64,000 nucleotides of DNA. Source: Actinomycetota bacterium (GTDB lineage Bacteria > Actinomycetota > Actinomycetes > S36-B12 > CAIYMF01). Where the stretch lies: contig JAPLAU010000030.1 of the NCBI GenBank assembly GCA_026393115.1, positions 1 to 64,000 on the forward strand. Direction: 5' to 3'. Both the position numbers and the translations under genes were made by a program. Below, piece by piece: positions 37,240-57,724 of the stretch. The stretch's first letter is position 1, and each line of letters starts with the position of its first letter. The notes below the pieces were generated by a model. It saw only the letters and a program-made list of their open reading frames with translations, was not told where the DNA came from and did not search any database.

Positions 37240-38547
37240 ATGACGACCGACACTGACTCACTCGCCTGCGATGCGATTGTCGTAGGTGCGGGGGTCATCG
37301 GCTGTGCCATCGCGCTCGAGCTTGCGCGCGGCGGTCGGTCTGTCATTGTGGTCGACTCCAAGGGTGGTCCGGGACACGGAAGTACCAGTGCGTCGTCGGC
37401 CATCATTCGCTTTCACTACATGCACCTGACTGAGTCAGCCTTGGCCTGGGAAGCCGGTCATCGCTACATGCAATGGGAACGTCACCTCGGAGCCGTTGAT
37501 CCGGCGGGGATGGCCCAATTCATTCAGACCGGTGGAATGGTGCTGGAGGGCGGTGGTTACGACCTTGAGCGCATGGTCTCGAACCTGCGCACCCTCGGTG
37601 TCGACGTGCGTGAACTGTCGGGACCTGAGATTGCAGAAATGTACCCCGGGGTTGATCCCGGGAAATACGGCCCGCCGGCACTTCCCGACGACGACCATTT
37701 CTGGGCTGACGCCGACGGCGAGCTCGTTGCCTTTCACGTTGAAGCGTGCGGGCAGATGGACGATCCACAGTTGGCAGCGAACAACTTGGCGTATGCCGCG
37801 TCGGTCAACGGTGCGCAGTTCCTTTTCAACCGCAGCGTCTCTGACGTGATCATTGAGGGTGCACGCGTCGCCGGTGTTGAACTCTCTGACGGATCGCGCG
37901 TGGTGGCGCCGATTGTCGTCAACGCCGCCGGGCCATGGTCGTCTCAATTGAACCGAATGGCCGACGTGCTTTCTGATTTCACGATGACGACGCGGCCGAT
38001 GGAACAGGAAGTAATTTCCGTTCCTGCCCCCGAGTCGTTCAACCTCAGCAATGGCACAGTCATCACTGACCCCGACGTTGGTACCTACTTTCGCCCACAT
38101 CAGGGCGGAACGATCATCGTGGGCGGACTCGAAGCCGACTGTGATCCGGTGGTCTTTCTCGACAAGCCCGAGGATGCGATCGAGTCGGTGAGTGCTGAGA
38201 CGTGGAACGTGCAGTCGCTGCGACTGGCGCGGCGAATTCCCGACCTGGTGATTCCGGGCCGACCCAGCGGAATCGTGGGCGTCTATGACGTGACCGAAGA
38301 CTGGATTCCGATCTATGACCGCACGAGTCTTGACGGTTTCTATGTGGCGATCGGAACCAGTGGTCACGCGTTCAAGCAAGCACCCTATGTCGGAGTGCTG
38401 ATGGCGTTACTGATTGATGAAGTCGAGGCCGGTCGTGATCACGACAATGACCCGGTCGTAGCTGTCGCTCCCTGGACCGGTGTTGAAGTGAACGTCGGGC
38501 ACTTCTCGCGATTGCGTGACGTGCTGCCGCAGCGGGGGATGGGGTAG
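37240..38547 (+). CDS. FAD-dependent amine oxidoreductase (DAO family)
   Basis: A 435-residue flavoprotein. Dinucleotide motif DAIVVGAGVIGCAIALELAR, then SSAIIRFHYMHLTESALAWE (sarcosine-oxidase-like substrate loop), NAAGPWSSQLNRM, GIVGVYDVTEDWIPIYD, and YVAIGTSGHAFKQAP at the C-terminal end. It resembles the beta subunit of sarcosine oxidase and related demethylating amine oxidases. It starts directly at the previous stop, so it is coexpressed with the hydrolase and with MttB. Confidence 0.88.
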   Translation: MTTDTDSLACDAIVVGAGVIGCAIALELARGGRSVIVVDSKGGPGHGSTSASSAIIRFHYMHLTESALAWEAGHRYMQWERHLGAVDPAGMAQFIQTGGMVLEGGGYDLERMVSNLRTLGVDVRELSGPEIAEMYPGVDPGKYGPPALPDDDHFWADADGELVAFHVEACGQMDDPQLAANNLAYAASVNGAQFLFNRSVSDVIIEGARVAGVELSDGSRVVAPIVVNAAGPWSSQLNRMADVLSDFTMTTRPMEQEVISVPAPESFNLSNGTVITDPDVGTYFRPHQGGTIIVGGLEADCDPVVFLDKPEDAIESVSAETWNVQSLRLARRIPDLVIPGRPSGIVGVYDVTEDWIPIYDRTSLDGFYVAIGTSGHAFKQAPYVGVLMALLIDEVEAGRDHDNDPVVAVAPWTGVEVNVGHFSRLRDVLPQRGMG

Positions 38548-38550
38548 GAC

Positions 38551-39984
38551 GTGAGTTCCCTTCCGCTCGAGCCCCTCGATGCTGACGCGCTCGACCGCGT
38601 TCATGCGCAGGCGATGCGCATCCTTTCCGAAATTGGCACTGAGGTGCACGACGACGATGCTGTCGAAATGCTGCGCGCTGCCGGGCAGACCATTGACGGA
38701 ACTCGCGTGCTGTGGGACCCCGATTTCGTGATGACACAGTTGGCGCTCGCGCCGTCGACAGTCACGGTGACAGGGCGCAACCCGGAACGGTCGGTGGTGC
38801 TCGGCGGCGGTTCGTTGGCGCATTCGCCTGTTGGTGGACCACCCTTTGCAACCGATGGCGAGCGTGGCCGCCGAGACGGATCGATCAGCGATCACATTGA
38901 GTTGGTCAAACTCGCGCATGCGTCGAATGTGTTGTCGGTGCTGCAAAGTGGCACGACCGAAGCTCAAGATCTTGATCATGAGTCACGTCACCTTGAGATG
39001 GATTACTCGATTCTTCGCTACAGCGATCGACCGTTCATCATCTATGGCACGAGTGGTCCGAAGGCACGTGATGCCTTCGAGCTGGCCGCCATTGCGGCGG
39101 GTGGACGTGAGGCGTTGCTCGCCAACCCGATGACGATTGGCATCGTGAATCCCAATAGTCCGCTCGTGTGGGACGGTTTGATGGTCGACATGCTGCGCGC
39201 GTGCGCCGAGTACGGGCAGCCCGTTGCCATCACTCCTTTTCTATTGGCAGGAACCTCGGCCCCGGTGACACTGGCGGGGGGACTGTCGTTGCTTGTGGCC
39301 GAAACCTTGGCTGGCGTTGCCATGGCCCAACTGGTGCGTCCCGGAACTCCATGTATTCTCGGCACCTTCTTCAGCGGTGTTGACATGCGTTCGGGTGGAC
39401 CTTCGCTGGGACTTCCTGAATCGGTGCTCACCACCTTGGCCGGCGCGCAGGTGGCCAAGCGCTACGGATTGCCGCTGCGTGGAGGTGGCGGTTTGTGCTC
39501 AGGCATCGCGCTCGACGCGCAGGTCGCAATCGAAAGCACGATGTCGATGTGGGCGACGTACCTCGCCGGTTGCGATCTCGTGGTGCACTCGGCCGGCTGG
39601 ATCGAGGGAGGTCTGACGGCGTCGTATGAGAAGTTCGCCATTGACCTTGAGGTCATCGCGATGTTCGAGCGCCTTCGTGCTGGCTTGGTCGTTGACGACG
39701 ACTCGCTGGCCTTTGACGCCATCGCTGAGGTCGGCCCTGGGGGCATGTTCCTCGGGCACGAGCACACACTCGAACGTTTCCGCACTGAAGTCTTCATGAG
39801 CCCCCTGTTCCGATCGCAGGCGTATCCCACGTGGGTCAAGCAGGGATCGCGCACCTCAGAAGTCATCGCCACCGAGCAGTGGAAGGCGTTGCTGGACTCG
39901 TACGAAGATCCGGGCATCGACGAATCAGTTGATGCTGCGTTGCGTGAATACATCGACCGTCGCACGAGGGAGATCGACACATGA
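38551..39984 (+). CDS. MttB-family methyltransferase without pyrrolysine
   Basis: A 477-residue protein of the trimethylamine/betaine methyltransferase family: RVHAQAMRILSEIGTEVHDD, FATDGERGRRDGSISDH, YSILRYSDRPFIIYGTSGPK, then LRGGGGLCSGIALDAQVAIE, and HSAGWIEGGLTASYEKFAID. The frame runs through without an internal TAG, so it is the non-pyrrolysine type. Members of this group move a methyl group from glycine betaine, proline betaine or carnitine to a corrinoid protein. No corrinoid-binding protein is found nearby. GTG start at 38551. It overlaps the next gene by ATGA. Confidence 0.82.
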   Translation: MSSLPLEPLDADALDRVHAQAMRILSEIGTEVHDDDAVEMLRAAGQTIDGTRVLWDPDFVMTQLALAPSTVTVTGRNPERSVVLGGGSLAHSPVGGPPFATDGERGRRDGSISDHIELVKLAHASNVLSVLQSGTTEAQDLDHESRHLEMDYSILRYSDRPFIIYGTSGPKARDAFELAAIAAGGREALLANPMTIGIVNPNSPLVWDGLMVDMLRACAEYGQPVAITPFLLAGTSAPVTLAGGLSLLVAETLAGVAMAQLVRPGTPCILGTFFSGVDMRSGGPSLGLPESVLTTLAGAQVAKRYGLPLRGGGGLCSGIALDAQVAIESTMSMWATYLAGCDLVVHSAGWIEGGLTASYEKFAIDLEVIAMFERLRAGLVVDDDSLAFDAIAEVGPGGMFLGHEHTLERFRTEVFMSPLFRSQAYPTWVKQGSRTSEVIATEQWKALLDSYEDPGIDESVDAALREYIDRRTREIDT

Positions 39985-42395
39985 AGTCGCACTACCGCGT
40001 GGTTGTGATCGGTGGCGGAATTGTGGGCGCGAGCCTGCTGTACCACCTGACGCTCCGTGGCTGGACTGACGTGGCAATCATCGAGCGCAGCGAACTCACC
40101 GCAGGGTCGAGTTGGCATGCTGCGGGTGGATTCCACGCCATCAACAGTGACACGCACATCGCGGCACTGCAGAAGTACACCATCGGCATGTACCCGCAGG
40201 TTGAAGCCGAAAGTGGCCAGGCGGTGGGCCTGAAGATGTCGGGAGGTATTGAGTTGGCGAGCACTCCTGACCGCTGGGAGTGGTTGCAGGCTGAACTCGA
40301 ATGGCATCACATGATGGGCACCGAAGGTGCACGGCTGATGGATGTCGACGAAATCGTGCGGCTGGTTCCGATCGTCGAGCCCACGGGCATCATCGGTGGC
40401 CTCTTCGACCCCCATGAAGGCAACCTCGACCCGCACGGCGCGACACACGCGTACGCAACGGCAGCCCGTAATCGTGGGGCCGATGTGATTGTTCACAACC
40501 AGGTGTTGTCGATGTCACGCGGATACGGCCTGTGGCAGCTGATCACTGAAGAGGGCCGTGTCACCGCTGAACATGTGGTCAATGCCGCCGGCTTATGGGC
40601 GCGCAAGGTGGGGCGAATGGTCGGCGTCGATCACCCCGTTACTCCCATGCAGCATCACTACCTCGTGACTGAGTCGATTCCGCAAGTTGCTGCGCTCACT
40701 CATGTGATGCCCGCTGTGACCGACCTTGAGGGCTTTACCTACCTGCAGCGCGAGCAGGACGGTGTGTTGCTCGGCGTGTACGAGCGCAACCCGAAGCACT
40801 GGATGACCGAAGGGGCGGAGTGGGACTTCGGCATGACGCTGCTGCCTGAAGAGATTGAGCGCATCAGTCCCGAACTTGAGATCGGCCTGCGGCGATTCCC
40901 GGCGCTTGCTGAAGCGGGTATCAAGAAGTGGGTCAACGGCGCGTTCACTTTCACACCCGATGGAAACCCGCTCGTCGGTCCTGTGCGAGGAGTACCCGGC
41001 TACTGGTCTGCTTGCGGAGTGATGGCCGGATTCTCGCAGTGCGCGGCCATCGGTCTTGCCTTGTCGAACTGGATGGTCGACGGCGATCCAGGTGATGACG
41101 TCTTCGCCATGGACGTGGCGCGCTTCGGACCGTGGGCTTCGGACGATTCGTATCTCCTGCCGACAACCTCGCAGTTCTACTCGCGCCGATTTCTGATCGC
41201 GTACCCCAATGAATTTCTGCCTGCCGGTCGCCCACTGCACACCACACCTGCCTATGACGAACTCGTCGCCGACGGTGGTCGATTCAACGCCACCTGGGGA
41301 TTGGAAGTGCCGCAATACTTCGCTTCGGGGCAGCCAGACTTTGTCGAAGTGCCGTCCTTGCGACGGTCGAACGCATTCGGATTCGTTGCTGATGAAGTGG
41401 CCGCAGTACGCACGGCAGTGGGTGCCTACGAAACCGGCGTGTACGCGCGCTACGAAGTGAGTGGTCCCAAAGCACGTGAGTGGCTCGATCGAACTCTCGC
41501 CTGTCGTATTCCCGAGGTAGGGCGCATGCGGTTGGCGCCCATGCTGCACCCCAAGGGAACGTTGATGGGTGACCTCACCGTTGCGCGTCTTGGCGACGAT
41601 CGCTTCTGGTTGGTGGGTTCGTACTACTTGCAGGAATGGCATCAGCGTTGGTTCGAGAAGACCCTTCCGAGTAATGGCGTCACGGTCGACAATCTCACCG
41701 GTCAGTGGCTCGGTTTCGCGATCTCGGGGCCGAACTCACGCGAACTTCTGTCGCGGGTTGTGGAGGGTGACGTGAGTAATGAGGCGTTGCCGTTCATGTC
41801 GATCAGGTCGCTGCCAGTGTTGGGTACGCCGGGAGTAGTCGCGCGGCTGTCCCTGACCGGTGAACTCGGCTACGAGATCACCGTGTCTTGCGATGTGCAC
41901 GCTGACTTGTGGCGCGCGTTGCGTTCTTGCGGAAATGATCTCGGCCTGCGGCCCGTCGGCGATCGCGCGATCGACAGCCTTCGTTTGGAGAAGGGCTACG
42001 GAATCTGGTCGACCGAGTTCACGCAGGCGTACACGCCGGGCATGTCGGGACTCGATCGTTTCGTGGCATATGACAAGGGGGAGTTCGCGGGACGTGAGGC
42101 GGCTGAACGCGAACGTGCTGAGGGCGCGAGTCGACGACTCGTGCTGCTAGACGTTGACGCGTCAGACGCCGATGCCGCGGGTGATGAACCCGTGTGGTGT
42201 GGTGATGAGGTCGTCGGGTTCGTGACGTCGGGATCTTACGGACATCACGTACAGCGCAGTTTGGCCTTGGCGTACGTCGATGCGCATATTGTTGACGACG
42301 CTGCACTGCTGGTGTCGGTTATCGGGCAGCGACGACCCGCACGTATCCTCCCGGAGGTTCCGTACGACCCGAGCGGCGCACTCCTGCGCAGCTAG
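39981..42395 (+). CDS. Flavin-GcvT fusion, dimethylglycine/sarcosine dehydrogenase-like (copy 1)
   Basis: An 804-residue protein. The N-terminal half is a DAO-type flavin domain: VVVIGGGIVGASLLYHLTLR, then TAGSSWHAAGGFHA, in which the His is the likely covalent flavin site of this family, and YWSACGVMAGFSQ. The C-terminal half (about 420-800) is a GcvT/folate-binding domain (GELGYEITVSCDVHADLW, LRLEKGYGIWSTEF). Such enzymes oxidise N-methyl groups and pass the carbon to tetrahydrofolate. It ends the operon begun by the binding proteins. Confidence 0.88.
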   Translation: MKSHYRVVVIGGGIVGASLLYHLTLRGWTDVAIIERSELTAGSSWHAAGGFHAINSDTHIAALQKYTIGMYPQVEAESGQAVGLKMSGGIELASTPDRWEWLQAELEWHHMMGTEGARLMDVDEIVRLVPIVEPTGIIGGLFDPHEGNLDPHGATHAYATAARNRGADVIVHNQVLSMSRGYGLWQLITEEGRVTAEHVVNAAGLWARKVGRMVGVDHPVTPMQHHYLVTESIPQVAALTHVMPAVTDLEGFTYLQREQDGVLLGVYERNPKHWMTEGAEWDFGMTLLPEEIERISPELEIGLRRFPALAEAGIKKWVNGAFTFTPDGNPLVGPVRGVPGYWSACGVMAGFSQCAAIGLALSNWMVDGDPGDDVFAMDVARFGPWASDDSYLLPTTSQFYSRRFLIAYPNEFLPAGRPLHTTPAYDELVADGGRFNATWGLEVPQYFASGQPDFVEVPSLRRSNAFGFVADEVAAVRTAVGAYETGVYARYEVSGPKAREWLDRTLACRIPEVGRMRLAPMLHPKGTLMGDLTVARLGDDRFWLVGSYYLQEWHQRWFEKTLPSNGVTVDNLTGQWLGFAISGPNSRELLSRVVEGDVSNEALPFMSIRSLPVLGTPGVVARLSLTGELGYEITVSCDVHADLWRALRSCGNDLGLRPVGDRAIDSLRLEKGYGIWSTEFTQAYTPGMSGLDRFVAYDKGEFAGREAAERERAEGASRRLVLLDVDASDADAAGDEPVWCGDEVVGFVTSGSYGHHVQRSLALAYVDAHIVDDAALLVSVIGQRRPARILPEVPYDPSGALLRS

Positions 42396-42883: not shown

Positions 42884-42981
42884 CGCAATCTCCTGAAGGT
42901 CGAATTGGTAGAGACACGCTATCGGCCGCCATCCACATCAGTGGGTTGACCAAGGTTAGTCAGGCATGCTGCACTGGCAGA

Positions 42982-43242
42982 GTGGAAACTGTGAATGTAC
43001 TCGACGCAAAGACTCACCTCTCGGCTCTGCTTGCCCGCGTTGAGAAGGGGGAGGAGATCGTCATCGCGCGCGCGGGGGTTCCTGTCGCCAAACTCGTGCC
43101 GATCCCTCAGGCGCGACAGCCCCGAGTTCCGGGCGCATGGAAGGGCAAATTCAACTTTCCCACCGATGAGGAGTGGGCAGAGAGTGACCGAATCGTCCAG
43201 GAGATCTTTGAAGAGAGCCTGGCCGGGAACGAGGAAGGATGA
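42982..43242 (+). CDS. Phd/YefM-type antitoxin
   Basis: An 86-residue antitoxin: ETVNVLDAKTHLSALLARVE at the start is the Phd/YefM-like DNA-binding part, then GEEIVIARAGVPVAKLVPI, and an acidic tail that should neutralise the toxin. GTG 42982 was chosen because it begins at the family's usual start; ATG 42946 is possible. It overlaps the toxin start (ATGA). Confidence 0.85.
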   Translation: METVNVLDAKTHLSALLARVEKGEEIVIARAGVPVAKLVPIPQARQPRVPGAWKGKFNFPTDEEWAESDRIVQEIFEESLAGNEEG

Positions 43243-43613
43243 GACTGCTGCTCGACACGAATGTGCTGCTGAATTGGCTGGAGGGCAGGCGCCTCTCACA
43301 CGATGCCGCGCAGGCAATCACCGACTCTGCTAACGACGCATTCGTTTCCGTGGCGACAGTGTGGGAGATGGGAATCAAATACGCGGTAGGCAAACTCTCG
43401 GTGCCACCGCCGTCCGAAGACACTCTCGATGCTCTGGGATTCTCAGTTCTTGGCATTCGTGTAGGCGATGCGCAGCGCCTGGCCGAGCTTCCGTTGCAAC
43501 ACCGCGACCCCTTCGACCGCATGCTGGTCGCGCAGGCTCTTGGCGAATCACTCACTCTCGTCACACGCGATCGCACGCTTGCCGCCTACGGAGTGGCGGT
43601 CATTACGGCGTAG
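43239..43613 (+). CDS. PIN-domain toxin (VapC-like)
   Basis: A 124-residue PIN ribonuclease. Acidic residues of the active site: RLLLDTNVLL (Asp), VATVWEMGIKYAVG (Glu), HRDPFDRMLVAQAL (Asp) and LTLVTRDRTLAAY (Asp). It would cut tRNA or rRNA when free. Pairs with the Phd-type antitoxin just upstream. Confidence 0.9.
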   Translation: MRLLLDTNVLLNWLEGRRLSHDAAQAITDSANDAFVSVATVWEMGIKYAVGKLSVPPPSEDTLDALGFSVLGIRVGDAQRLAELPLQHRDPFDRMLVAQALGESLTLVTRDRTLAAYGVAVITA

Positions 43614-43615
43614 CG

Positions 43616-44059
43616 TCAGCCGGCATCCAACTTCTCGACCGTCTTCTCGATTCGCTTGAACCGTGTCTCGGGCTTCTTGGCATCCTCAACCGCGCGTACG
43701 TGCTCTTTGCGCTGTGAATACGACAGTGCATTCCACTGCTCACTGAGCCCCGCAGCGTCGATAGCAACTTGCAGATCGTGAGGAACATCAACCGTGCGCT
43801 CGGAAACATCGCGCGTAACGTCGCAGGGGTAACTTCCACCAGGAACGAGTCCACCCTCGCGCATCTCGGCATTGACGACCGTCATCCACTCACCGCGATA
43901 CACGGAGACGCTCGTGCGAAAAGTGTTGCCCTTGAACGTGATCGCCAATGGAACGCGTGAGCGGCCTGCTTCGCCTCGGATCGCGTCGACCTGTTCCTGC
44001 GTCAACAGCACTGTGGCAGTCGTCTTTCCCGTGGCAATTACATCGAGCGTCAGCTTCAT
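43616..44059 (-). CDS. YdeI/OmpD-associated family protein (DUF1905-like)
   Basis: A 147-residue protein. The N-terminal half is a small beta-barrel (TTATVLLTQEQVDAIRG, VPLAITFKGNTFRTSVSVYR, MREGGLVPGGSYPCDVTRD), and the C-terminal half holds ALSYSQRKEHVRAVEDAKKP, the YdeI bacteriocin-protection motif. A role in stress or antimicrobial peptide tolerance is known for some relatives, not shown here. It converges with the toxin gene, two bases apart. Confidence 0.82.
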   Translation of the reverse strand: MKLTLDVIATGKTTATVLLTQEQVDAIRGEAGRSRVPLAITFKGNTFRTSVSVYRGEWMTVVNAEMREGGLVPGGSYPCDVTRDVSERTVDVPHDLQVAIDAAGLSEQWNALSYSQRKEHVRAVEDAKKPETRFKRIEKTVEKLDAG

Positions 44060-44088: not shown

Positions 44089-44628
44089 TTACTCGGGGGC
44101 GACTACTCGTAAGGCCGCGGACGACACTTCGAAGTACCGAGACGTACCGGTGTACGCATCTGGCACGTCAAGGACAAGGCGGTAGCGAAATCGGCCTGGT
44201 GCGAGATCAGGTGTCACACCGCCGGCCCAATAGCGGTAGGTGGGCGTCAGTGGGTTGCGAACCCGATCGGGCATTCCATAAGTCTTCAGATCCGAACTCA
44301 CCTTGATAGCGCTGGGCGCATCGGAGTCTTCGTGCAGAAATACGATCGTGGCGATGGACGGGAACGTCGGCCAAGAACCGTCGCTGCGCCGTTGTGAGTC
44401 AATTCCGTAGATGAGCCAGTTCAGTACCTGGCCGGGTGCGCAGGCCGTCTCAAGATGGGGAGTTCCCTTGCCAGTGCTGGAGGGACTGTTATCGAGCAGG
44501 AAGACGGCGTCATTGACCGATCCGGTTCTCTGCAGTCGCGAGACATCGACAACCGTGATGATGTTCAACTGCGGGTGCCGGAACGTCGATGAAGGCGGCA
44601 CGCTCGCGTTCGAGAGGTCGTGGGTCAT
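44089..44628 (-). CDS. AidA/PixA-like small protein D
   Basis: A 179-residue soluble protein and the last of four tandem relatives. Residues 20-65: LNIITVVDVSRLQ, then GSVNDAVFLLDNSPSSTGKG, followed by W-containing strands (LNWLIYGID, SWPTFPSIATIVF) and a C-terminal YRLVLDVPDAYTGTSRYFEV. This plan (VVD strand, variable loop with GxGT, alternating strands) is what I associate with AidA/PixA-type inclusion-body proteins, a beta-sandwich family. Its start overlaps the stop of protein C (ATGA). No catalytic residues are seen. Its function is unknown; the closest named relatives are quorum- or symbiosis-linked. Confidence 0.5.
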   Translation of the reverse strand: MTHDLSNASVPPSSTFRHPQLNIITVVDVSRLQRTGSVNDAVFLLDNSPSSTGKGTPHLETACAPGQVLNWLIYGIDSQRRSDGSWPTFPSIATIVFLHEDSDAPSAIKVSSDLKTYGMPDRVRNPLTPTYRYWAGGVTPDLAPGRFRYRLVLDVPDAYTGTSRYFEVSSAALRVVAPE

Positions 44629-45065
44629 TCGTCAACCCTTTCGTCAACGGAGTCAGCATCACTGTGCGAGCTGGGGATGAGCGACAAGGAGTCGACGAGT
44701 GTCAATTCGCGCCCATTGCGACCCAACGTGAGGGTGATCGAGTACGGAAGTGCTTCATCGATCGTGCCCACCGAGCAGTGCCACGCTGAAGTCTCCATGA
44801 TTGACGATTCGGTCTCGGTCCGGGGAGCGGCCAGCATGCCGGGAATCGAAATTCCGTCGATGGTGGCTTCCGCCTCGCATTCGAGCGGAATCAGAAGCCA
44901 CAGCAGTCGGTCGCCCGGCTTGACTGCAGTGGCCAAGGCTGATGTGCCAAGGCCATGTGATCCTGCTGAGCGCGCGGTGTCGAAAGCGAACATGTTGCCG
45001 TCGAGACGATCCTCGTGAAGGGCGGCGAGCACGTCGATTGTCATCTTGATCACGACGTCAGTCAT
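44625..45065 (-). CDS. AidA/PixA-like small protein C
   Basis: A 146-residue protein of the same tandem set: VVIKMTIDVLAALHEDRLDG, FAFDTARSAGSHGLGTSALA (the GLGT loop), then GDRLLWLLIPLECEAEATID and ALPYSITLTLGRNG. It is the shortest copy and lacks the long insert seen in B. Start at ATG 45065 was taken because it begins the pattern; its start lies inside the end of gene B (bases ATGACTGA, 45058-45065), so it is translationally coupled. Confidence 0.5.
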   Translation of the reverse strand: MTDVVIKMTIDVLAALHEDRLDGNMFAFDTARSAGSHGLGTSALATAVKPGDRLLWLLIPLECEAEATIDGISIPGMLAAPRTETESSIMETSAWHCSVGTIDEALPYSITLTLGRNGRELTLVDSLSLIPSSHSDADSVDERVDE

Positions 45066-45837
45066 CTGAGTCAACTCCTGCTTCGGCTGCATCGGCATCC
45101 AATTCAGATTCGTCTTCGGAAACCGGCGAGAGGTCGATAGGTTCCACGAACTCATTCGGAACGGGAAGTGGAAGGTATCCGGCCAATGCTCCGGTGAATC
45201 CGTTCACGGCCACGATCTGATCGACTTCAAAATGTAACTCGCAGGGATACAGCTCCGGCTCCCATGCAGGCCGATCGCCGTCCATGACCGCACGAAAGAC
45301 CCCAATGTGCATGGTGGCGTGGTGAGTCCCCACTCGATGGGTGTCAACGACGGCACTCCAATACCAGCCGTCGGTGGAAAGGTCGGGGGAGCCATAGCGC
45401 GCGGGGAAGATCACTCCGTCGTCCACCGCTTGGCCGGTGATGTCAGCGATGAACGGTGGCAGGAAGCCGCCTCGATCAATTTCCTCGGGAGTTAAAGGCA
45501 GTCCATCGAGCCCCGCCACTGAGTTCCCGACGAGACCTGAGCCCGACAGTGGCTCGGGAGCACCCTCGATGCGTCCCCATTTCATGCTGCCGGCGATGAC
45601 GCCGGGCTTGCTGGCGATGCCTCCGATTACCCAGTTGAGGGTGATTTCGTCAAGAACCGAGCCATCGGGATGGTGGACGCCAGTGCATCGAATGAAGAGT
45701 TCCGAATCCTGATGGTCACCGAGTGAGTTGAGCGCAGGCTCATCGAGTTTGGCGTCGACGAGAAATGCATTGCCGATGACGCTTCGGTCTGCGAGCGTCT
45801 GTGCCACGTCGATCATGAAGGCGAGCGACTCCTGCAT
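45058..45837 (-). CDS. AidA/PixA-like small protein B (extended)
   Basis: A 259-residue member, longer than its neighbours. It opens FMIDVAQTLADRSVIGNAFL, as in the other copies, but the usual GxGT loop is replaced by SLGDHQDSELFIRC, and a long middle part (GSGLVGNSVAGLDG, ITGQAVDDGVIFPARYGSPD, WYWSAVVDTHRVGTHHATMH) has no match to the short copies. The C-terminal tail is strongly acidic (DLSPVSEDESELDADAAEAG). It has a good GGAGG site nine bases before ATG. Function unknown. Confidence 0.45.
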   Translation of the reverse strand: MQESLAFMIDVAQTLADRSVIGNAFLVDAKLDEPALNSLGDHQDSELFIRCTGVHHPDGSVLDEITLNWVIGGIASKPGVIAGSMKWGRIEGAPEPLSGSGLVGNSVAGLDGLPLTPEEIDRGGFLPPFIADITGQAVDDGVIFPARYGSPDLSTDGWYWSAVVDTHRVGTHHATMHIGVFRAVMDGDRPAWEPELYPCELHFEVDQIVAVNGFTGALAGYLPLPVPNEFVEPIDLSPVSEDESELDADAAEAGVDSDD

Positions 45838-45871
45838 GGCTAAAACCCTCCATGGGTTGTGGTGGTCAGGC

Positions 45872-46363
45872 TCATAGAAGTCCCTCGATACTGGGCGGCG
45901 TCTCGACGGTGGCGGGCGGAATAATCCACTCGGGCGCCAACGTCGATGTCAACTGAAGTGAGGGACCTTCGACTGTCACGGGAGTTCCTCGATGCCCGTC
46001 ACCGAACGTGAGTTGAATGGCGTAGGGGGATGGCTCTGCGGGTGAGAGGCCCGCCGGCACGTAACCCTCCCAAATCAAGGAGCGCGGTCGGGGTGCCGGT
46101 AGTCGCTCGGGTAACGGCTCACTTCCAGCGAGCGGATCTACCCGGGCGAAGTCGATTCCGACGATCCAGCCCGGTGCCTGTAGGTCGACGGGCACCAGCG
46201 TCCATCGAACCAATTGAAAGGGATGCACAACTGAGATCAGTTGATGAGTGCCTTTACCTTGACTTTGATCGCCATCCTCGAAGAGGAAAACCGACTGATC
46301 AAGTGATCCACCTTCAAGCAACAGAAGAGAGTCAACGACGATTCTGATGTTCAACGGGTGCAC
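45872..46363 (-). CDS. AidA/PixA-like small protein A
   Basis: A 163-residue protein, the first of the tandem set after the ligase. LNIRIVVDSLLLLEGGSLDQ, SVFLFEDGDQSQGKGTHQLI, then FQLVRWTLVPVDLQAPGWIV and PYAIQLTFGDGHRG follow the shared pattern, with the GKGT loop conserved as in D. GTG start with a perfect AAGGAGG site three bases upstream. Expressed with the adenylating enzyme and the decarboxylase upstream. Confidence 0.5.
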   Translation of the reverse strand: MHPLNIRIVVDSLLLLEGGSLDQSVFLFEDGDQSQGKGTHQLISVVHPFQLVRWTLVPVDLQAPGWIVGIDFARVDPLAGSEPLPERLPAPRPRSLIWEGYVPAGLSPAEPSPYAIQLTFGDGHRGTPVTVEGPSLQLTSTLAPEWIIPPATVETPPSIEGLL

Positions 46364-46402
46364 GGTGCCTCCTTCGTATTAGTTTCGAGCTGAACTTCCG
46401 CT

Positions 46403-47920
46403 TCATGACCCATGATCAACCACCAACGGAACCTTCCCCACACTGGTGCGAGTGATCGCAGGCGAAGAGGGGTCCACAATCTGAGTCCCGAATGCGTAAC
46501 CGGACCGCGCGAGAGACGTTTCGTTCGCCTCGAGTCCATTGAAGATTGACAACGATTGATTAAGGCCGGCAGCGATGACTGTGGCCGAACCTGTCGAACC
46601 AAGACGTTGACCGAGCTCGCGACTTGTCTCCGTTGGATCGGAGGTTGAGATCAGTAGCACCAACTCACGGGGTCCGCGTCTGTTGATCAACTGCACCTCG
46701 AAAGCCGCAGCCTCGAGATCGAAGCCGACCTGATCGCGAAAGGCGCGAAAGATGGAGGCAAGCGCCCGTGGGGCGGAGTACTGGGTATCACCAATGTGCA
46801 GGATGTCCCCGCTACGACCAACGTATTCGAAATTGGTGGAGCACAGCGCCTCGCTTTCGGTGTCAGGGAGACGCCTCACGAAATCGCCAACCTTGTAGCG
46901 CAACGCTGGCACTCGGTGAGCGAAGAGTCGAGTGACCACGAGTTCGCCCTGCTCACCCACGTCAACCCAATGGCCGTCTTCATTGACGACTTCGATGAAG
47001 TTCAAGCCGGGCACGGTGGTGAGAGCGGGCGAGGTGTGGTCGAGTTGTAAACCGATCGCTTCGGCCTGGGTCGCAGCGAAGTAACTCAGTATTGTCACAT
47101 TTGGGTAAGCCTCGATGAGGTCTTCGTGGGCTCTACGGGTCAAGACACCACTTCCGTACATTGCCACACGCAGACTCAATCGCGCCTGTTCACTCAGGCC
47201 TGTTGCGAAAGTCGGAAGAAGCGCGATGCTCTGGGTGATGCCCATGATGGCCTTGGGTCCTGGGTAGGACATGAAGTGCGCGAACACGTCGGCGCTCATC
47301 GGTCCTGCGCCGACGTAGTTGACGTCGGGCACTCGCTGCAAGACCCCGCCCACCATCGTGCCGCTGCTCCACATTTGGTAGTCGGCAAGGGTTGTGGTCA
47401 GCCATTGCGGCCGTTCGTCGCCCATCGGGTGTGGAAGCATGTGGCGGCCGATGAAGCCGCCCGCACACTTGTAGGTGTCTCTGAGTTCCTGAAGTTCGTA
47501 GACCGTTTCTGACGGCCTTCCTGAACTCGTTCCTCCGCTCGCGACAATCTCGAATCCACCATGCTCAAGTGGGATCACCATTCCGGGGCGTTCGCCAGTG
47601 AACAGATCCGCGAAAGATTCCTTGTCGGTGAGAGGAATCGCTTGCCAGTCATCGAAGGAATCGATCGAAAGCGGGGCGTTCGTGAGCCGTTCGTTCCAAG
47701 CGCCGTTGAGTCGAGCGATGGAGGTCAATTGATGCAATCGGCGCAGGGTGACAGCGCCCTGAATTTCCAGCGGTAGCGCATCGTAGCGCGAGCCGGTGGT
47801 GTCACCGATGGCGCCAAGTGACGAGAGGAATGAGGGAAGGGCGAGAACGTGTTGAGTTGATTCCGGATTGAGATCGGTCTCAGGAATCGCCAAGACGGCC
47901 ATGTCGATGGGCGTAAACAT
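46403..47920 (-). CDS. CapK/PaaK-like adenylate-forming enzyme
   Basis: A 505-residue ANL-type enzyme of the phenylacetate-CoA ligase/CapK group. Motifs: ASGGTSSGRPSET (P-loop equivalent), ILSYFAATQAEAIG (A5 region), VGEQGELVVTRLF, and LRYKVGDFVRR (A7 equivalent). The C-terminal lid Lys is not clearly placed. It should adenylate a carboxylic acid; it may pass it to CoA or to an amine. It starts at ATG 47920, four bases after the decarboxylase stop. EhpF-like proteins of antibiotic clusters share this architecture. Substrate unknown. Confidence 0.72.
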   Translation of the reverse strand: MFTPIDMAVLAIPETDLNPESTQHVLALPSFLSSLGAIGDTTGSRYDALPLEIQGAVTLRRLHQLTSIARLNGAWNERLTNAPLSIDSFDDWQAIPLTDKESFADLFTGERPGMVIPLEHGGFEIVASGGTSSGRPSETVYELQELRDTYKCAGGFIGRHMLPHPMGDERPQWLTTTLADYQMWSSGTMVGGVLQRVPDVNYVGAGPMSADVFAHFMSYPGPKAIMGITQSIALLPTFATGLSEQARLSLRVAMYGSGVLTRRAHEDLIEAYPNVTILSYFAATQAEAIGLQLDHTSPALTTVPGLNFIEVVNEDGHWVDVGEQGELVVTRLFAHRVPALRYKVGDFVRRLPDTESEALCSTNFEYVGRSGDILHIGDTQYSAPRALASIFRAFRDQVGFDLEAAAFEVQLINRRGPRELVLLISTSDPTETSRELGQRLGSTGSATVIAAGLNQSLSIFNGLEANETSLARSGYAFGTQIVDPSSPAITRTSVGKVPLVVDHGS

Positions 47921-47924
47921 CGGG

Positions 47925-49427
47925 CTATTCGACCCCGATCTCACGCGCGGCCTCACGGATTTCGTCAAGGAGTGCGCGCACGTCAGGCTCGGTGATCTCG
48001 TGGTTCATCATCACCAATCTCAGTGCGCGCTCGTCGCCGACATCTGCCTTCGAGATGAGGAAATTGCCCCGGCTTCGCACCTTGTCGCGAAGGGCACTCT
48101 GTAGCGAGTCGCGATCCCAGACTGTGCCACCGGCAGGTGCGTACTGGAAGCACAGGATGTTCGATTGTGGAGTGTGCAGAACACGGAAGTCTGCCTGCGC
48201 GCTAATCAGGCCATGTGCCATGTCAGTGAGGTCAACCAGGGTCTCGAGCTTGCTTGCCAAAAGTTGGCGCCCGTACATCGACCAGAGCAGCCACAGATTG
48301 ACGATGGACGGGCGTTTGGTGCACTCGAGATTCTTCCCGCCGCTTTCCATGCGACTCGCCTCGCTGTAGGGCTCGTCGAAGACGTAACTCGCGACCTGTT
48401 CGAATGCGAGTTGGGACGACAGAGCCTCTCGATAGAACAGCAGGGTGCAAGCGGCCGGTACAAAGAGAGTCTTGTGTGCATCCAGAATGAACGAGTCAGC
48501 CCGTTCGATTCCGCGCAGCCGTGGTCGCAATCGTTCAGACACCAAGAAGGAAGCGCTATGCGCTCCATCCACATGAAGCCACAATCCTCGCTCGCTTGCG
48601 AGATCGGCCAGTTCATCCAGAGGGTCGATGGAGCCGGTGGCGGTGGTACCGGCCGACGCAACGAGGCAGAAAATGTCGATGCCGTCGCGCGCTGCTTGGT
48701 CGATAACCGTGACTGCATCGTGAACGCGGATGCGGCGCTGATCGTCGAGTGGGAGTCGTACCACGCAATTCTCGCCGATGCCGAGCACGCCGGCGGCGCG
48801 ACTCACGCTGTAATGCGAGTCAGCGCCGACGGCGATTCCTAACCGGCGACCGTCAGAACGACTTTGCAGGCCCTCGGTCCACGCCTGGGGTACGAAGCGG
48901 TTGCGTGCGGCAAGCAGCGCAGTGAGGTTTCCGAGCGCCCCGCCTGACGTTGCCACCATGTCGAATTGATTAGGCGCCCATCCCAGAAGCGCCGCAAATT
49001 CCTGCGCCATGATGGAGTCGGCCACATTGGCCAACTGACCCGCCTCGTAAAAGGAGGCGGGCTGCGGCGCCATAGCGCTGACCATGTCGAAGACTCCCGC
49101 AGCGGGCGCCACTGACGAGAATTGACGGCCCATGTATCCGGTCGTGTGGACTTGAATTCCGGTACGTAGGTAGAGGTCAATGATGTGAGTAAAGCGCTGC
49201 TCGTCGAAATCGCCATGTGGATCTGAAGACATCAGCGCTCGAGCCTGCGCAATCAGATCAGCTGGTTCCTGCAGGGTCACCCCTCGTCGATCGTTGGAGT
49301 CGAGGTGACGAGTGAGACATTGAACAGCGAGCGCTGCGGCTCGTTCAAAGGTCAAAACTGAAAACGCCTCAGAGAATACGTGGGGCAATTCGCCGAAGGC
49401 GCCTACCCGAGAATCGACGGAGGTCAC
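47925..49427 (-). CDS. PLP-dependent decarboxylase (aromatic amino acid/glutamate type)
   Basis: A 500-residue group II decarboxylase. Motifs: HTTGYMGRQFSSVAPAAGVF at the entrance, VATSGGALGNLTALLAARN, SDHYSVSRA-type ADSHYSVSRAAGVLG, GTTATGSIDPLDELA, LHVDGAHSASFLVS (Asp and His near PLP), and DAHKTLFVPAACTLLFYRE with the PLP Lys in DAHKT. It would make a biogenic amine from an amino acid, which the exporter or the neighbouring adenylating enzyme could use. Substrate not predictable here. It is 73 bases downstream of the MFS gene and starts the enzymatic part of the operon. Confidence 0.82.
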   Translation of the reverse strand: MTSVDSRVGAFGELPHVFSEAFSVLTFERAAALAVQCLTRHLDSNDRRGVTLQEPADLIAQARALMSSDPHGDFDEQRFTHIIDLYLRTGIQVHTTGYMGRQFSSVAPAAGVFDMVSAMAPQPASFYEAGQLANVADSIMAQEFAALLGWAPNQFDMVATSGGALGNLTALLAARNRFVPQAWTEGLQSRSDGRRLGIAVGADSHYSVSRAAGVLGIGENCVVRLPLDDQRRIRVHDAVTVIDQAARDGIDIFCLVASAGTTATGSIDPLDELADLASERGLWLHVDGAHSASFLVSERLRPRLRGIERADSFILDAHKTLFVPAACTLLFYREALSSQLAFEQVASYVFDEPYSEASRMESGGKNLECTKRPSIVNLWLLWSMYGRQLLASKLETLVDLTDMAHGLISAQADFRVLHTPQSNILCFQYAPAGGTVWDRDSLQSALRDKVRSRGNFLISKADVGDERALRLVMMNHEITEPDVRALLDEIREAAREIGVE

Positions 49428-49500
49428 GTCGACTGTTTACCGTACGAGGTAGCGCTTGTCGAATCTGTGAGCGCAGTTTTATCTTCCGGATGCGAGGTGT

Positions 49501-50976
49501 TCACCCGCTGGCGCTTGCTTGAGCGGCGAGGTCGGCCAGCTTGACGCGAACAAGTGCGAACCACAGGAGGCCGCCGATCACGAGAATGCCCGCGCTCCAG
49601 GCGAAGGCTGCCGTGTAGCCGGCCACGAGGGACTGCGCGGACGCGGCCGATTGGCCAGTGCTGGCGACGACTCCTGCAGTGGTGGCGGAGGCGACCGTGT
49701 TCAGCAAGGCGACGCCTATGGCGCCGCCAATCTGCTGGGTGACGCTCACCAGTGCGGATGCGACACCGGTGTCGGAGGGTGCAACTCGGTAGACAGCGCT
49801 CGCCGTGAGTGGCACGAAGATCAGTCCCATTCCCAGACTCATGATCACGAGAGGGGGAAGCACATTCACGACATACGAACTCTCAGGGCTGAGCCGCGCC
49901 AGGCCCACAGTTCCGAGGGTGGCGAGAAAGAAGCCAATCGTTGCCACATTGCGCGGGCCGAGACGGGGAAGAAGCGCGTTGGCCGCGTACGTGCTCACGA
50001 CAACTCCGACAGAGAAAGGTATGCCCGCGAGTCCAGCCTGAAGCGGCGAGAACAGGAGGACTTCCTGAAGGTAGTAGGAGATGAATAGAAACGTCGCGAA
50101 CAGAGCCGCTCCACTGAAAAGTCCCGCGAGATAAGCCCCACCCCTGTTGCGCTCGGTAAGGATGCGAAGTGGAAGAAGCGGGTGAGCTGACTTCCACTCA
50201 ACGAGGAAGAAGGCGGCCAGCAGCACGACCGAGAGCATCAGCATTCCGACAGTCAGTGAGTTCGACCATCCGCTCACACTGGCCTCGGAAACACCGAAGA
50301 CCAGACACACGAGGCCGAGGGTTCCGAGTAGCGCGCCAGGTAAGTCGTAGCCGCCTGCCTTGACCACTCGATTCTCGCGAACGAACGGAATCGCCAGAAG
50401 TGCTGCCACCACCGCAATGGGGACATTGATAAGTAAGCACCAATTCCAGTTGACGTACTCGGTGAGGACTCCACCCAAAACCAAGCCCACCGCGCCACCG
50501 GCTGCCGAAATTGCGCTGTACACCGCAAACGCCTTAGTGCGCTCGCTGACGTCGAGGAACGTGACGGCGATGAGTGCAAGTGTTGTCGGTGCGAGCAGTG
50601 CCGCGAAAACGCCGGTTGCGGCTCTGGCGAGGATGAGTTGCGTTCCTGTAGTTGACAGCCCAGCGATCGCCGACGCCACCGCGAAACCGATCAATCCGAT
50701 GATCAGGCAGCGCTTCCTGCCGGCAAAGTCTGAGATGCGTCCACCGAGGAGGAGCAGCCCTCCGAACGTCAGCGAGTAGGCGGTAATGACCCACTGCCGC
50801 TCAGCGTCGGTGAGATTCAATTCCTGTTGGATAGAGGGCAGGGCGATGTTGATCACGGTGCTATCGAGAACAACCATGAGCGCCGCGATACCAACCACGA
50901 GAAGGGTTTTCCAGCGCAGAGGATCGGGGGCGGCCGTGAAGGGGCCCGATGGCGGGGCGCTGTGTGACTCAGTCAA
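49501..50976 (-). CDS. DHA2-type MFS exporter
   Basis: A 491-residue, 14-span MFS protein of the EmrB/QacA group. Motif A in GGRISDFAGRKRCLIIG, LDSTVINIALPSIQQEL in the first span, ILARAATGVFAALLAPTTLA (motif B region), and the conserved motif C-like stretch AAGGAVGLVLGGVLTEY. Such proteins export drugs and secondary metabolites. It is the first gene of the block that continues with decarboxylase, adenylating enzyme and four small proteins, and is probably the product exporter (inference). Confidence 0.87.
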   Translation of the reverse strand: MTESHSAPPSGPFTAAPDPLRWKTLLVVGIAALMVVLDSTVINIALPSIQQELNLTDAERQWVITAYSLTFGGLLLLGGRISDFAGRKRCLIIGLIGFAVASAIAGLSTTGTQLILARAATGVFAALLAPTTLALIAVTFLDVSERTKAFAVYSAISAAGGAVGLVLGGVLTEYVNWNWCLLINVPIAVVAALLAIPFVRENRVVKAGGYDLPGALLGTLGLVCLVFGVSEASVSGWSNSLTVGMLMLSVVLLAAFFLVEWKSAHPLLPLRILTERNRGGAYLAGLFSGAALFATFLFISYYLQEVLLFSPLQAGLAGIPFSVGVVVSTYAANALLPRLGPRNVATIGFFLATLGTVGLARLSPESSYVVNVLPPLVIMSLGMGLIFVPLTASAVYRVAPSDTGVASALVSVTQQIGGAIGVALLNTVASATTAGVVASTGQSAASAQSLVAGYTAAFAWSAGILVIGGLLWFALVRVKLADLAAQASASG

Positions 50977-55249: not shown

Positions 55250-57724
55250 ATGACCTTGACGACCGAGACCTCGGCATCCGCACTTCCCTCCCGCGCCCGC
55301 GTGGTGGTGATCGGCGGTGGTGTCATTGGAACGTCGACTCTCTACCACCTCGCTGAGGCCGGCTGGACCGACTCGGTGCTGCTCGAGCGCGACCGGTTGA
55401 CCTCAGGAACCACCTGGCACGCCGCGGGTTTGATGGTGACCTTTGGGTCGACATCGGAGACTTCAACGCGACTGCGCCAGTACACGCGCGATCTGTATGC
55501 GCGACTCGAAGCCGAAACGGGTCTTGCCACCGGCCTCATGCAGGTGGGATTCATCGAAGTTGCCGCTGACGAAGGTCGCCTTGAGGAGTACCGCCGCGTG
55601 TCGGCGTTCAACCGATTGATGGGCGTTGACGTTCAGGAGATCTCGCCGCGCGAGGTAGGCGAGATGTTCCCTCTTGCCCGCACCGACGATTTGCTCGCTG
55701 GTTTCTACGTTGCCGATGACGGTCGTGTGAATCCTGTCGACTGCACGATGTCGATGGCGAAGGGTGCGCGCATGCGCGGCGCACGCATCATCGAGGAATG
55801 CCCGGTGGTCGACGTCATCGTGCGCAACGGCGCTGTTGCCGGTGTGCGTACTCCGATGGGTGACATCGAATGCGATTACGTCATCAACTGCTCGGGCATG
55901 TGGGCGCGCCAACTCGGTGAAAAGTCCGGGGTCACCATTCCGTTGCAGGCAGCTGAGCATTACTACCTGATTACCGAACCGATCGCGGGCGTCGACAAGT
56001 CGTGGCCGGTACTCGAAGATCCGGGCTGCCACGGGTACTACCGCGAAGAGGGCGACGGGCTGATGATCGGCCTATTCGAACCGGTGTGTGCACCATGGAG
56101 TGTCGACGGAATTCCAGATGGCTTCTCGTTCGGCACCCTTGAGCCTGACTGGGACCGTATGGGACCGTACTTGGAACGCGCCATGTCGCGCGTGCCGATC
56201 ACCGCCGACACCGGCATTCGCACCTTCTTCTGCGGCCCTGAATCATTCACCCCCGACCTTGCGCCCGTGGTGGGTGAAGCACCCGAGGTACGCAACTACT
56301 TCGTGGCCGCCGGCTTGAACTCCATCGGCATTCTCACCGGCGGTGGAATGGGTCGCGCGATGGCGCATTGGGTCATCGACGGTGATCCAGGAATCGACAT
56401 CACTGCCATGAACATCGACCGGCTGCACCCATACCAAAGCACTCCGGAATACCGCGCGACGCGCACCGTCGAGTCGCTGGGCATGGTCTACCAGTGCCAT
56501 TACCCAGGACGTTCGATGCAAACCGCGCGCGGTGTGAAGTTGTCACCGGTGCACGAGCGCCTCGTTGAGCAGCGGGCATTCTTCCGTGACGTCAGTGGTT
56601 GGGAAGGTGCTGACTGGTTTGCACCTGAAGGCACCGAACCCGAGCAGGGTGAACTCACGTGGGGTCGTCCGCAGTGGTTCGACCAGTGGCGTGCCGAGCA
56701 TGAGGCGGTGCGCGACGCCGTGGGCCTCATGGACATGTCGTTCATGTCCAAGTTCCTTGTGCAAGGTCGCGACGCGGGCGCGCTACTTGACGAACTGTCG
56801 GCTAACGCTGTCAACGGCGAGAGCGGCGTCATCACCTATACGCAATGGCTCAACGATCGCGGACTCCTCGAAGCCGACCTCACCGTTACCAAACTCGATG
56901 ACGATCGCTTCTGGGTAGTGGCAAGTGATACCGCACATCGCCATGTGCTCACGCGCATGCAGCGACACATCGGTGACCGCCACGTGTTCATCACCGACAT
57001 CACGGGTGCCTACGCGCAACTCAATGTTCAGGGTCCCCGTTCGCGCGAGTTGATGCAGCGGCTCACTTCCGCTGACATGTCCAACGAGGCGTTCCCATTC
57101 CGCGCAGCACGCGAGATCGATCTTGGTTTCGCTCGCGCGTTGTGCATTCGCATCACGTACCTTGGCGAACTCGGGTACGAGTTGTACGTTCCGAGCGAAC
57201 ACGCCCTGCACGTCTACGACCGCATTTCTGAAGCCGGCGCTGACTACGGACTAATGCCGGTCGGCCTCAAGTCGCTCGCCAGCCTGCGCATGGAAAAGGG
57301 CTACCGCGACTACGGCCACGACATCGACAACACCGACTCGGTGCTCGAAGCCGGACTCGGTTTCGCGGTGGCACTCGATAAGCCAGGCGGCTTCATCGGA
57401 CGTGATGCGGTGATGGCGCGCAAGGCCGAAGGGGCATTGCGCAAGCGACTGCTTCAGGTGCAGGTCACTGACCCCGAACCGCTGATGTTCCACGCCGAAC
57501 CGGTACTGCGCAACGGAGTTCCGGTGGGCTACATTCGTGCCGCATCGTATGGTTTCACGCTCGGTGGCGCAGTGGGACTCGCGATGATCGAGGCTGATGA
57601 ACCCATCGATACAGCATGGATCGATGCGGGGGAGTGGACGGTGGAGATCGCAGGGCAGGTGTATCCGGCGATCGCGTCGCTCAAGCCGTTGTACGACCCG
57701 ACGAACGCGAGGATTCGCGCGTAG
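55250..57724 (+). CDS. Flavin-GcvT fusion, dimethylglycine/sarcosine dehydrogenase-like (copy 2)
   Basis: An 824-residue paralogue of the protein at 39981. RVVVIGGGVIGTSTLYHLAE, then SGTTWHAAGLMVTFGS with the probable flavin His, CGMWARQLGEKSG-type SGMWARQLGEKSGVT, and YFVAAGLNSIGILTGGGMG in the flavin half; LGELGYELYVPSEHALHVY and SLRMEKGYRDYGHDID in the GcvT half. It stands alone here, 48 bases after the GT4 gene. Its 3' end runs 44 bases into the gene on the other strand. Confidence 0.88.
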   Translation: MTLTTETSASALPSRARVVVIGGGVIGTSTLYHLAEAGWTDSVLLERDRLTSGTTWHAAGLMVTFGSTSETSTRLRQYTRDLYARLEAETGLATGLMQVGFIEVAADEGRLEEYRRVSAFNRLMGVDVQEISPREVGEMFPLARTDDLLAGFYVADDGRVNPVDCTMSMAKGARMRGARIIEECPVVDVIVRNGAVAGVRTPMGDIECDYVINCSGMWARQLGEKSGVTIPLQAAEHYYLITEPIAGVDKSWPVLEDPGCHGYYREEGDGLMIGLFEPVCAPWSVDGIPDGFSFGTLEPDWDRMGPYLERAMSRVPITADTGIRTFFCGPESFTPDLAPVVGEAPEVRNYFVAAGLNSIGILTGGGMGRAMAHWVIDGDPGIDITAMNIDRLHPYQSTPEYRATRTVESLGMVYQCHYPGRSMQTARGVKLSPVHERLVEQRAFFRDVSGWEGADWFAPEGTEPEQGELTWGRPQWFDQWRAEHEAVRDAVGLMDMSFMSKFLVQGRDAGALLDELSANAVNGESGVITYTQWLNDRGLLEADLTVTKLDDDRFWVVASDTAHRHVLTRMQRHIGDRHVFITDITGAYAQLNVQGPRSRELMQRLTSADMSNEAFPFRAAREIDLGFARALCIRITYLGELGYELYVPSEHALHVYDRISEAGADYGLMPVGLKSLASLRMEKGYRDYGHDIDNTDSVLEAGLGFAVALDKPGGFIGRDAVMARKAEGALRKRLLQVQVTDPEPLMFHAEPVLRNGVPVGYIRAASYGFTLGGAVGLAMIEADEPIDTAWIDAGEWTVEIAGQVYPAIASLKPLYDPTNARIRA

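Follow-up and report, generated by a model that had tools for sequence, protein, structure and literature searches.

Among the described proteins that most closely resemble the small proteins considered here are those of the PixA/AidA family (PF12306; PDB 4lzk, 4pib, 4q52), for which the formation of inclusion bodies in stationary phase is characteristic. In one account, PixA is said to have been originally described as an inclusion body protein, the PixA proteins are called poorly understood, and a role as a DNA mimic is proposed for the family member Bnr1 (PMC9060813). Closer still, by both sequence and fold, are MakC and MakD (NF049870; 8rqy, which we take from its title to be MakC, and 6tct), which a second source presents as adjacent paralogues of the mak operon that are not secreted, with MakC forming large complexes in the cell and the functions of both proteins being described as unknown (PMC11484084). 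Roles of MakC and MakD as regulators or stress proteins have been speculated upon. The locus described below shares with these systems small proteins, one of them (S1) of a like predicted fold, and, as in the mak operon, paralogues encoded side by side. It differs in that four distinct members, rather than two groups, are fixed in one operon whose other products are two metabolic enzymes; moreover, none of the four matches PF12306, and their scores reach at most 44 bits against the 110 bits demanded by the MakCD model. Literature searches, in which coverage of subscription papers was limited, returned no description of this gene set.

The window, by which is meant the whole stretch of 64,000 nucleotides that was analyzed, contains on its minus strand a run of seven open reading frames spanning positions 44089-50976 and separated by the short gaps or overlaps that an earlier note on this DNA had pointed out:

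49501..50976, minus strand: MFS exporter of the DHA2/EmrB type (TIGR00711 and PF07690), 73 bp upstream of Dec
47925..49427, minus strand: Dec, group II PLP-dependent amino-acid decarboxylase (PF00282), nearest to glutamate decarboxylase
46403..47920, minus strand: Cap, divergent PaaK/CapK-like adenylating enzyme of the ANL type (profile, model and motif matches)
45872..46363, minus strand: S4, PixA/MakCD-superfamily protein of 163 aa (MakCD match, orthologue profile)
45058..45837, minus strand: S3, the longest small protein, 259 aa, with a PixA/MakCD-like N-terminal part
44625..45065, minus strand: S2, PixA/MakCD-superfamily protein of 146 aa (MakCD match, orthologue profile)
44089..44628, minus strand: S1, PixA/MakCD-superfamily protein of 179 aa (MakCD match, predicted fold)

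Reading of the DNA together with orthologue alignments suggests two revised starts: Cap probably begins at the ATG at 47920, 4 bp past the Dec stop, rather than at the TTG at 47968, and S2 probably begins at the ATG at 45065, which is preceded by an AGGAG site and overlaps S3 by 8 bp, rather than at 45155. The S4 start, a GTG at 46363, is preceded by AAGGAGG. With the revised starts, the intergenic distances from Dec through Cap, S4, S3 and S2 to S1 are 4, 39, 34, -8 and -4 bp. Scans for promoters and terminators gave no signal greater than that found in shuffled sequence. Whereas a tripartite pore-forming toxin is a characteristic neighbor of MakCD, the Pfam names assigned among the scanned neighbors within the window are OmdA, MFS, S15, S58, PIN, Phd, DAO, MTTB, HbpS-like and glycosyltransferase.

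The four small proteins are mutually related, with hhalign E values of 1.3e-9 to 1.3e-17 in the four of six group pairs that were compared, and they fall into four orthologous groups that match gene position (bootstrap values of 99-100 for S1-S3 and 74 for S4 in nine genomes). Across seven genomes, identity between paralogues does not exceed 30%, while that between orthologues averages 48%. None of the four window proteins matches any Pfam family at E values up to 1; when orthologues were searched with the PixA model PF12306, 0/7 S2 proteins matched and one of seven S3 proteins did so at 0.18. The MakCD model NF049870, whose curated cut-off is 110 bits, recognizes S1 (1.2e-9, 38.2 bits), S2 (2e-11, 44.0 bits) and S4 (4.8e-4, 20.2 bits) and scarcely registers the window S3 (E 0.11, 12.6 bits). 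All seven S3 orthologues match it at E values up to 1 (best 1.7e-10), a search that also finds matches in 2 of 14 control genomes, so that matches near E = 1 prove little.

Kinship to AidA and PixA, which the earlier note had read from the pattern of the four proteins, holds for S1 at the level of its predicted fold and is graded downward from there, all scores lying below family cut-offs. The AF2 model of S1 (pLDDT 76.4), the sole usable model among the four and hence the only one in which a PixA fold was found, aligns with 8rqy (Z 14.8), MakD (14.4), PixA 4lzk (13.9), 4pib (11.2) and 4q52 (11.0), and Foldseek places it with 4lzk_F at 3.7e-7. For S2 and S4 the relationship is supported by orthologue profiles, which match 8rqy at 1.1e-15 and 5e-7 and MakD 6tct at 7.3e-11 and 1.5e-6, respectively. 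For S3 it is more weakly supported: its profile matches 8rqy at 4.4e-4 over positions 3-48, its hhalign matches to S1 (7.9e-12) and S2 (1.3e-9) cover the N-terminal part only, its long middle region has no assigned fold, and its AF2 model, built from a 3-row alignment, is unusable (pLDDT 42). Two local features are invariant in nine of nine sequences, namely C63 of S1 and E62-C63-E64 of S2. The window proteins contain no strongly hydrophobic stretch (19-residue maxima of 0.65-1.41, with some orthologues reaching 1.88), and the small proteins of seven genomes have isoelectric points between 4.1 and 7.8, hence not uniformly acidic ones.

Dec carries the PF00282 domain well above its gathering score (1.2e-46; 159.7 bits against 27), and the best PDB match of its profile is glutamate decarboxylase 1 (2.8e-67), the profile lying nearer to glutamate decarboxylase than to the aromatic amino-acid decarboxylases. 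Conserved in 12 of 12 aligned rows are H205, D287 and K319, which we take to be the catalytic histidine, the aspartate and the PLP lysine of group II decarboxylases such as GAD, CSAD, PanP and DABA decarboxylase, as well as R470. Dec nonetheless scores far below the equivalog cut-offs of PanP aspartate decarboxylase (163.9 against 606.1 bits) and DABA decarboxylase (160.2 against 900). In addition, the column aligned with what is presumably the catalytic-loop tyrosine of GAD67 holds E, V or I, such that a GAD-like reaction is not assured.

Cap is the more divergent of the two enzymes. The nearest PDB match of its profile is the phenylacetate-CoA ligase 4r1l (4.2e-12); PaaK models (best 1.4e-15) and FlxY models (best 1e-11) match 11/11 Cap members, and a BagE/FevW model matches one of the 11 (9.4e-4). 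Present in all 12 rows are SGGT, GD, GR and a C-terminal GK, presumed to be the SGGT loop, the GD and GR motifs and the catalytic lysine of the PaaK/CapK branch of the ANL superfamily. Cap differs from PaaK, CapK and FlxY in that the window protein lies far under all equivalog cut-offs compared, including that of the PaaK model TIGR02155 (27.1 against 646.3 bits), in that its Pfam AMP-binding score is 13.5 against 29.9 bits, and in that, where we would expect the A5 motif, it carries FAATQAE in 11 of 12 rows and FAAVQAE in the other.

Dec, Cap and S4-S3-S2-S1 recur in this fixed order at 15 loci including that of the window, in hosts of two phyla comprising rhizobial plasmids, Azospirillum, Nonomuraea and further actinomycetes. 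The 14 loci outside the window bear out the earlier proposal that the two enzymes and the four small proteins belong together, and indicate that their grouping is more than chance. Gaps within the cassette range from -25 to 128 bp in the eight genomes measured. (L023, which is 99% like L017 in two proteins, was kept in the orthologue alignments and excluded from the identity comparison, trees and motif table; L049-L054 are absent from the trees, motif table and spacing table, and G1681 from the spacing table.) In a plasmid collection, queries with S1, S2 and S3 matched only seven records, each also holding a full-length Cap, and four of the seven were opened. This rare and patchy occurrence fits horizontal transfer. 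The association is not without exceptions: four of the 19 loci bearing the enzyme pair, all in small low-GC alphaproteobacteria, have Dec and Cap only, with no small protein adjoining them and no MakCD match at E values up to 1 in the genome, which implies that the enzymes as such can do without the quartet; conversely, in two actinomycetes a single S-like gene stands on its own, the enzymes not being nearby.

The exporter, which had been counted as part of the set, lies outside the conserved module, leaving the six remaining genes as the cassette. It passes the DHA2 efflux model TIGR00711 (233.9 bits, the cut-off being 230.2) and matches PF07690 (4e-50); no homologue of it was found at any of the 14 other cassette loci (eight searched at E 1e-5, six at 1e-10) or at the four pair-only loci (1e-5), some of the flanks being short, as in L005, where some 1.5 kb precedes Dec. 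These searches covered 12 loci at 1e-5 (eight cassette, four pair-only) and 11 at 1e-10, five being common to both. The window neighbors OmdA, CocE/S15, S58, PIN, Phd and HbpS-like had no match in 12 loci either, and no transporter, regulator or coupling enzyme was recognized as common to the 15 loci, whose flanks are partly annotated. An isochorismatase-type hydrolase adjoins 8/19 loci; five genomes without one at the cassette have weak relatives elsewhere (23-36% identity), which is not informative for so common a family. A copper amine oxidase lies near the cassette at two of 11 loci tested, L010 and L051.

We favor, with a probability of roughly 0.45, the view that these six genes are a cassette that has spread horizontally and is devoted to a small metabolite. 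Dec would convert an amino acid to an amine and Cap would adenylate a carboxylic acid, the two perhaps being joined or otherwise built into one product; in some hosts, the hydrolase or the amine oxidase may act on the amide or amine. The four PixA-type beta-sandwich proteins would assemble into one cytoplasmic hetero-oligomer, which would either retain the enzymes or prevent the product from being in solution. In the earlier note, the binding, storage or shielding of a product, or the formation of inclusion bodies, was put forward as a possible role for them. Such a reading draws upon the occurrence of the full set in one order at 15/19 enzyme-pair loci, the tight spacing, the four position-matched groups with low paralogue and higher orthologue identity, the confinement of S1-S3 plasmid matches to records with Cap, the motifs of Dec and Cap kept in every row, the amine oxidase of L010 and L051, and the published descriptions of MakC and MakD as unsecreted, of MakC as forming large complexes and of PixA as an inclusion body protein. 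Counted against it are the pair-only loci, the lone S-like genes, the replaced GAD67 loop tyrosine and the want of a common transporter, regulator or coupling enzyme. That the quartet serves a single amine-plus-acid pathway exclusively, either as an obligate hetero-oligomeric protein particle or as a scaffold carrying acyl groups, is a bolder proposition that we regard as unlikely; if true, it would provide the first defined biochemical role of the PixA/AidA/MakCD superfamily, that of building a metabolic assembly.

The small proteins could instead be regulators or stress proteins merely co-transcribed with the enzymes, as might be supposed from the NCBIfam designation of MakCD as a toxin regulator, from the existence of S-like genes on their own and from the DNA-mimic role proposed for Bnr1 (PMC9060813). 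The persistence of a complete quartet in one order at 15/15 cassette loci of two phyla, and isoelectric points that are not those of uniformly acidic proteins, make this account a doubtful one. Somewhat less probable is a catabolic route in which the amine made by Dec passes through an amine oxidase to an aldehyde and an acid, Cap forms the CoA thioester for breakdown, and the small proteins shield the cell from aldehyde or amine. Phenylacetate-CoA ligase as the nearest structural match of Cap would suit such a route, as would the primary-amine oxidase adjoining the cassette in L010 (891 bits against a cut-off of 651) and its 57% identical homologue in L051; the scarcity of that oxidase, the distance of Cap from the PaaK cut-off and the closeness of Dec to glutamate rather than aromatic amino-acid decarboxylases all speak against it.

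Lowest in our estimation, and improbable, is an acyl-carrier scheme in which S1 or S2 would carry, on a cysteine, the acid loaded by Cap, a loading of the kind carried out by the acyl-protein synthetase LuxE, and the Dec amine would release that acid. The invariant cysteines of S1 and S2 are compatible with this scheme, in which pair-only loci would use another carrier, a protein with an HHxxxD-like motif that has a homologue at all four quartet-less loci and at 0/14 cassette loci other than that of the window, although this contrast comes from one clade. Against the scheme, a lone S-like protein that is not accompanied by the enzymes has a cysteine corresponding to that of S1, and the HHxxxD motif was recognized by visual inspection in a protein with no PDB match at E values up to 0.1, no NCBIfam match, and two Pfam matches under cut-off that were taken for chance.

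A set of six genes kept in fixed order among unrelated bacteria offers a concrete handle on the function of the PixA family, since it ties four distinct relatives of PixA and MakCD to two recognizable enzymes and so links the family to small-molecule chemistry. Being compact and present in two phyla, including on plasmids of root-nodule bacteria, the cassette makes that function testable in hosts that are harmless, with the four pair-only loci and the two genomes with lone S-like genes serving as natural controls.

Anti-phage defense was also considered and set aside, PADLOC returning no match for six proteins. Viral contigs held no relative of Cap when queried with six peptide patterns from one sequence, a search that finds close relatives only. 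A Burkholderia stagnalis protein, H8, is 25.6% identical to Cap over 37% of the Cap sequence and lies in a cluster with no annotated decarboxylase or PixA gene. Relatives of the decarboxylase at 32-33% identity are H23, which is unannotated, and H24, which lies among genes annotated otherwise.

The seven open reading frames that an earlier note had placed at 44089-50976 were confirmed, at those positions and on the minus strand, from the DNA of the window. Downstream of an MFS exporter these encode Dec, a group II PLP decarboxylase, Cap, a PaaK/CapK-like adenylating enzyme, and four small PixA/MakCD-like proteins, S4, S3, S2 and S1; we would move two starts, that of Cap being better placed at ATG 47920 and that of S2 at ATG 45065. 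The exporter and Dec are both assigned by Pfam, Cap has a match at only 0.032, and none of the window's four small proteins has a Pfam match. The NCBIfam family MakCD is matched by S2 (2e-11), S1 (1.2e-9), S4 (4.8e-4) and S3 (0.11), all four far under its cut-off of 110 bits, and S1, S2 and S4 are its sole matches in the window's own 3.5 Mb genome (E up to 1). Little weight attaches to hits close to E = 1, since 2 of 14 control genomes give one too. All seven S3 orthologues match under that limit, the best at 1.7e-10. Profiles built from seven orthologues each find structure 8rqy (MakC, judging by its title) with S2 (1.1e-15), S1 (2.2e-7), S4 (5e-7) and S3 (4.4e-4, confined to positions 3-48 of its N-terminal part, the one portion of S3 to which a fold could be assigned). 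A model of S1 from 9 rows (pLDDT 76.4) has as its best structural neighbours 8rqy (Z 14.8), MakD (6tct, Z 14.4) and PixA (4lzk, Z 13.9, with a large rmsd of 8.9), followed by 4pib and 4q52 (Z ~11); the next entry, aspartic peptidase SO1698, still reaches Z 10.0.

The set Dec-Cap-S4-S3-S2-S1, hereafter the cassette, is complete in 15 loci including the window, and Cap proved the best probe for finding it. Among 72,556 plasmid records Cap matched eight, seven of them with 80% or more of Cap covered (five Bradyrhizobium, one Sinorhizobium and one Nonomuraea), and four of these seven were opened; a Cap scan of genome contigs added two Azospirillum loci, and all six loci carry the genes in the same order on a single strand. 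A Cap profile matched seven of 120 genomes of one actinomycete family, one of them known before, and each of the six new genomes holds the complete ordered set as open stop-to-stop frames. An S1 profile matched five of 394 genomes of the window's class: the window, two with full cassettes (L038 and L039) and two with a lone S-like gene.

Within a genome the small proteins share a mean identity of 23% (maximum 30%; 42 pairs, seven genomes), whereas positional orthologues share 48% (minimum 28%; 84 pairs, seven genomes), and in a nine-genome tree S1, S2 and S3 form single clades (bootstrap 99-100; S4, 74). Because orthologues exceed paralogues in identity and clades match positions, four distinct small proteins probably predate the spread of the cassette, each position having been kept since. 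In Dec, the PLP lysine, aspartate, histidine and GAD-aligned arginine are kept in 12 of 12 rows, as are the SGGT loop, GD and GR motifs and C-terminal GK of Cap. The Dec column aligned with the catalytic-loop tyrosine of GAD67 holds E, V or I, so the Dec reaction cannot be assumed; neither window enzyme reaches an equivalog cut-off.

The fixed quartet, the tight spacing and the joint presence on the same records, along with the behaviour of relatives described in PMC11484084 and PMC9060813, suggest a small-molecule pathway with a dedicated, putative cytoplasmic hetero-oligomer (probability roughly 0.45): Dec would supply an amine, Cap an activated acid, and the four PixA-type proteins would assemble together. 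Counting against this are four genomes of 2.0-2.6 Mb (G614, G917, G935 and G1001, with a GC content of 31-38% in the parts fetched) in which Dec and Cap adjoin no small protein and no MakCD match was found at E up to 1. Their size and GC content suggest that they are probably acetic acid bacteria akin to Commensalibacter, a genus in which C. intestini has 36.8% GC (PMC8776678). There the pair is oriented divergently from an isochorismatase-type hydrolase and an HHxxxD-like-motif protein, with a DJ-1/AraC-type regulator farther out. Such a hydrolase adjoins four of the 15 cassettes (L007-L010), and a profile search found none beside the other 11. Also against it stand lone S-like genes, encoding a nearly identical protein of ~130 aa in two actinomycetes:

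L040:2435-2827, lone S-like gene (no Pfam match)
L041:458-1018, lone S-like gene

No Dec or Cap surrounds either in the fetched stretches (14 and 3.3 kb). That the small proteins are instead regulatory appears unlikely, and a catabolic amine route rather improbable; that S1 or S2, which have invariant cysteines, would serve as an acyl carrier is more doubtful still. The pathway with its hetero-oligomer is our best reading. No description of the six-gene set was found in the literature searched; the individual parts belong to known kinds, and the combination and its four-way PixA-type quartet are new to us.

With scoring in the large samples confined to the best few candidates per genome, Cap matched the window alone, at the E limits used, among 396 genomes of its phylum and 60 relatives (its own genome, one of its genus, 15 of its family, 43 of its order). 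Elsewhere, the class to which G455 belongs, Alphaproteobacteria, gave two matches in 385 genomes (one being G455 itself) and the phylum of G455 three in 398; the Azospirillum family gave two in 82, and the order of G614 four in 150. The matches in the phylum of G455 and in the Azospirillum family were known previously. Patchy presence in two phyla and location on rhizobial plasmids fit horizontal transfer. In a Cap tree rooted on the clade lacking small proteins the window groups with other actinomycetes (96/95), whereas in the tree of the small proteins its S3 and S4 group with alphaproteobacterial copies (100/98 each, long branches), and no donor can be named with confidence. The G1001 cluster (L025:1-12000) lies on an 18-kb contig with replication-initiator-like and ParA-like genes, read by eye, and may therefore be plasmid-borne.

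Around the cassettes, a CVNH (cyanovirin-type) domain protein (L009:6817-7260) lies upstream on the Sinorhizobium plasmid, and a copper amine oxidase is near in two of 11 loci tested (L010, L051). In the window, an OmdA/YdeI-like gene (43616-44059, minus strand) begins 29 bp past S1 on the same strand; a search of 12 other loci gave no homologue of it. Close to the downstream end of the window cassette sits a toxin-antitoxin pair of Phd/YefM and PIN type (42946-43613, plus strand); L008 carries an annotated VapC/Phd pair ~6 kb from its own cassette, which is not similar to the window pair at 1e-5. Methylated-amine type genes flank the window cassette on both sides (37240-42395 and 55250-57724, plus strand): an FAD oxidoreductase (DAO), an MTTB-family methyltransferase and two DAO-GCV_T fusion proteins.
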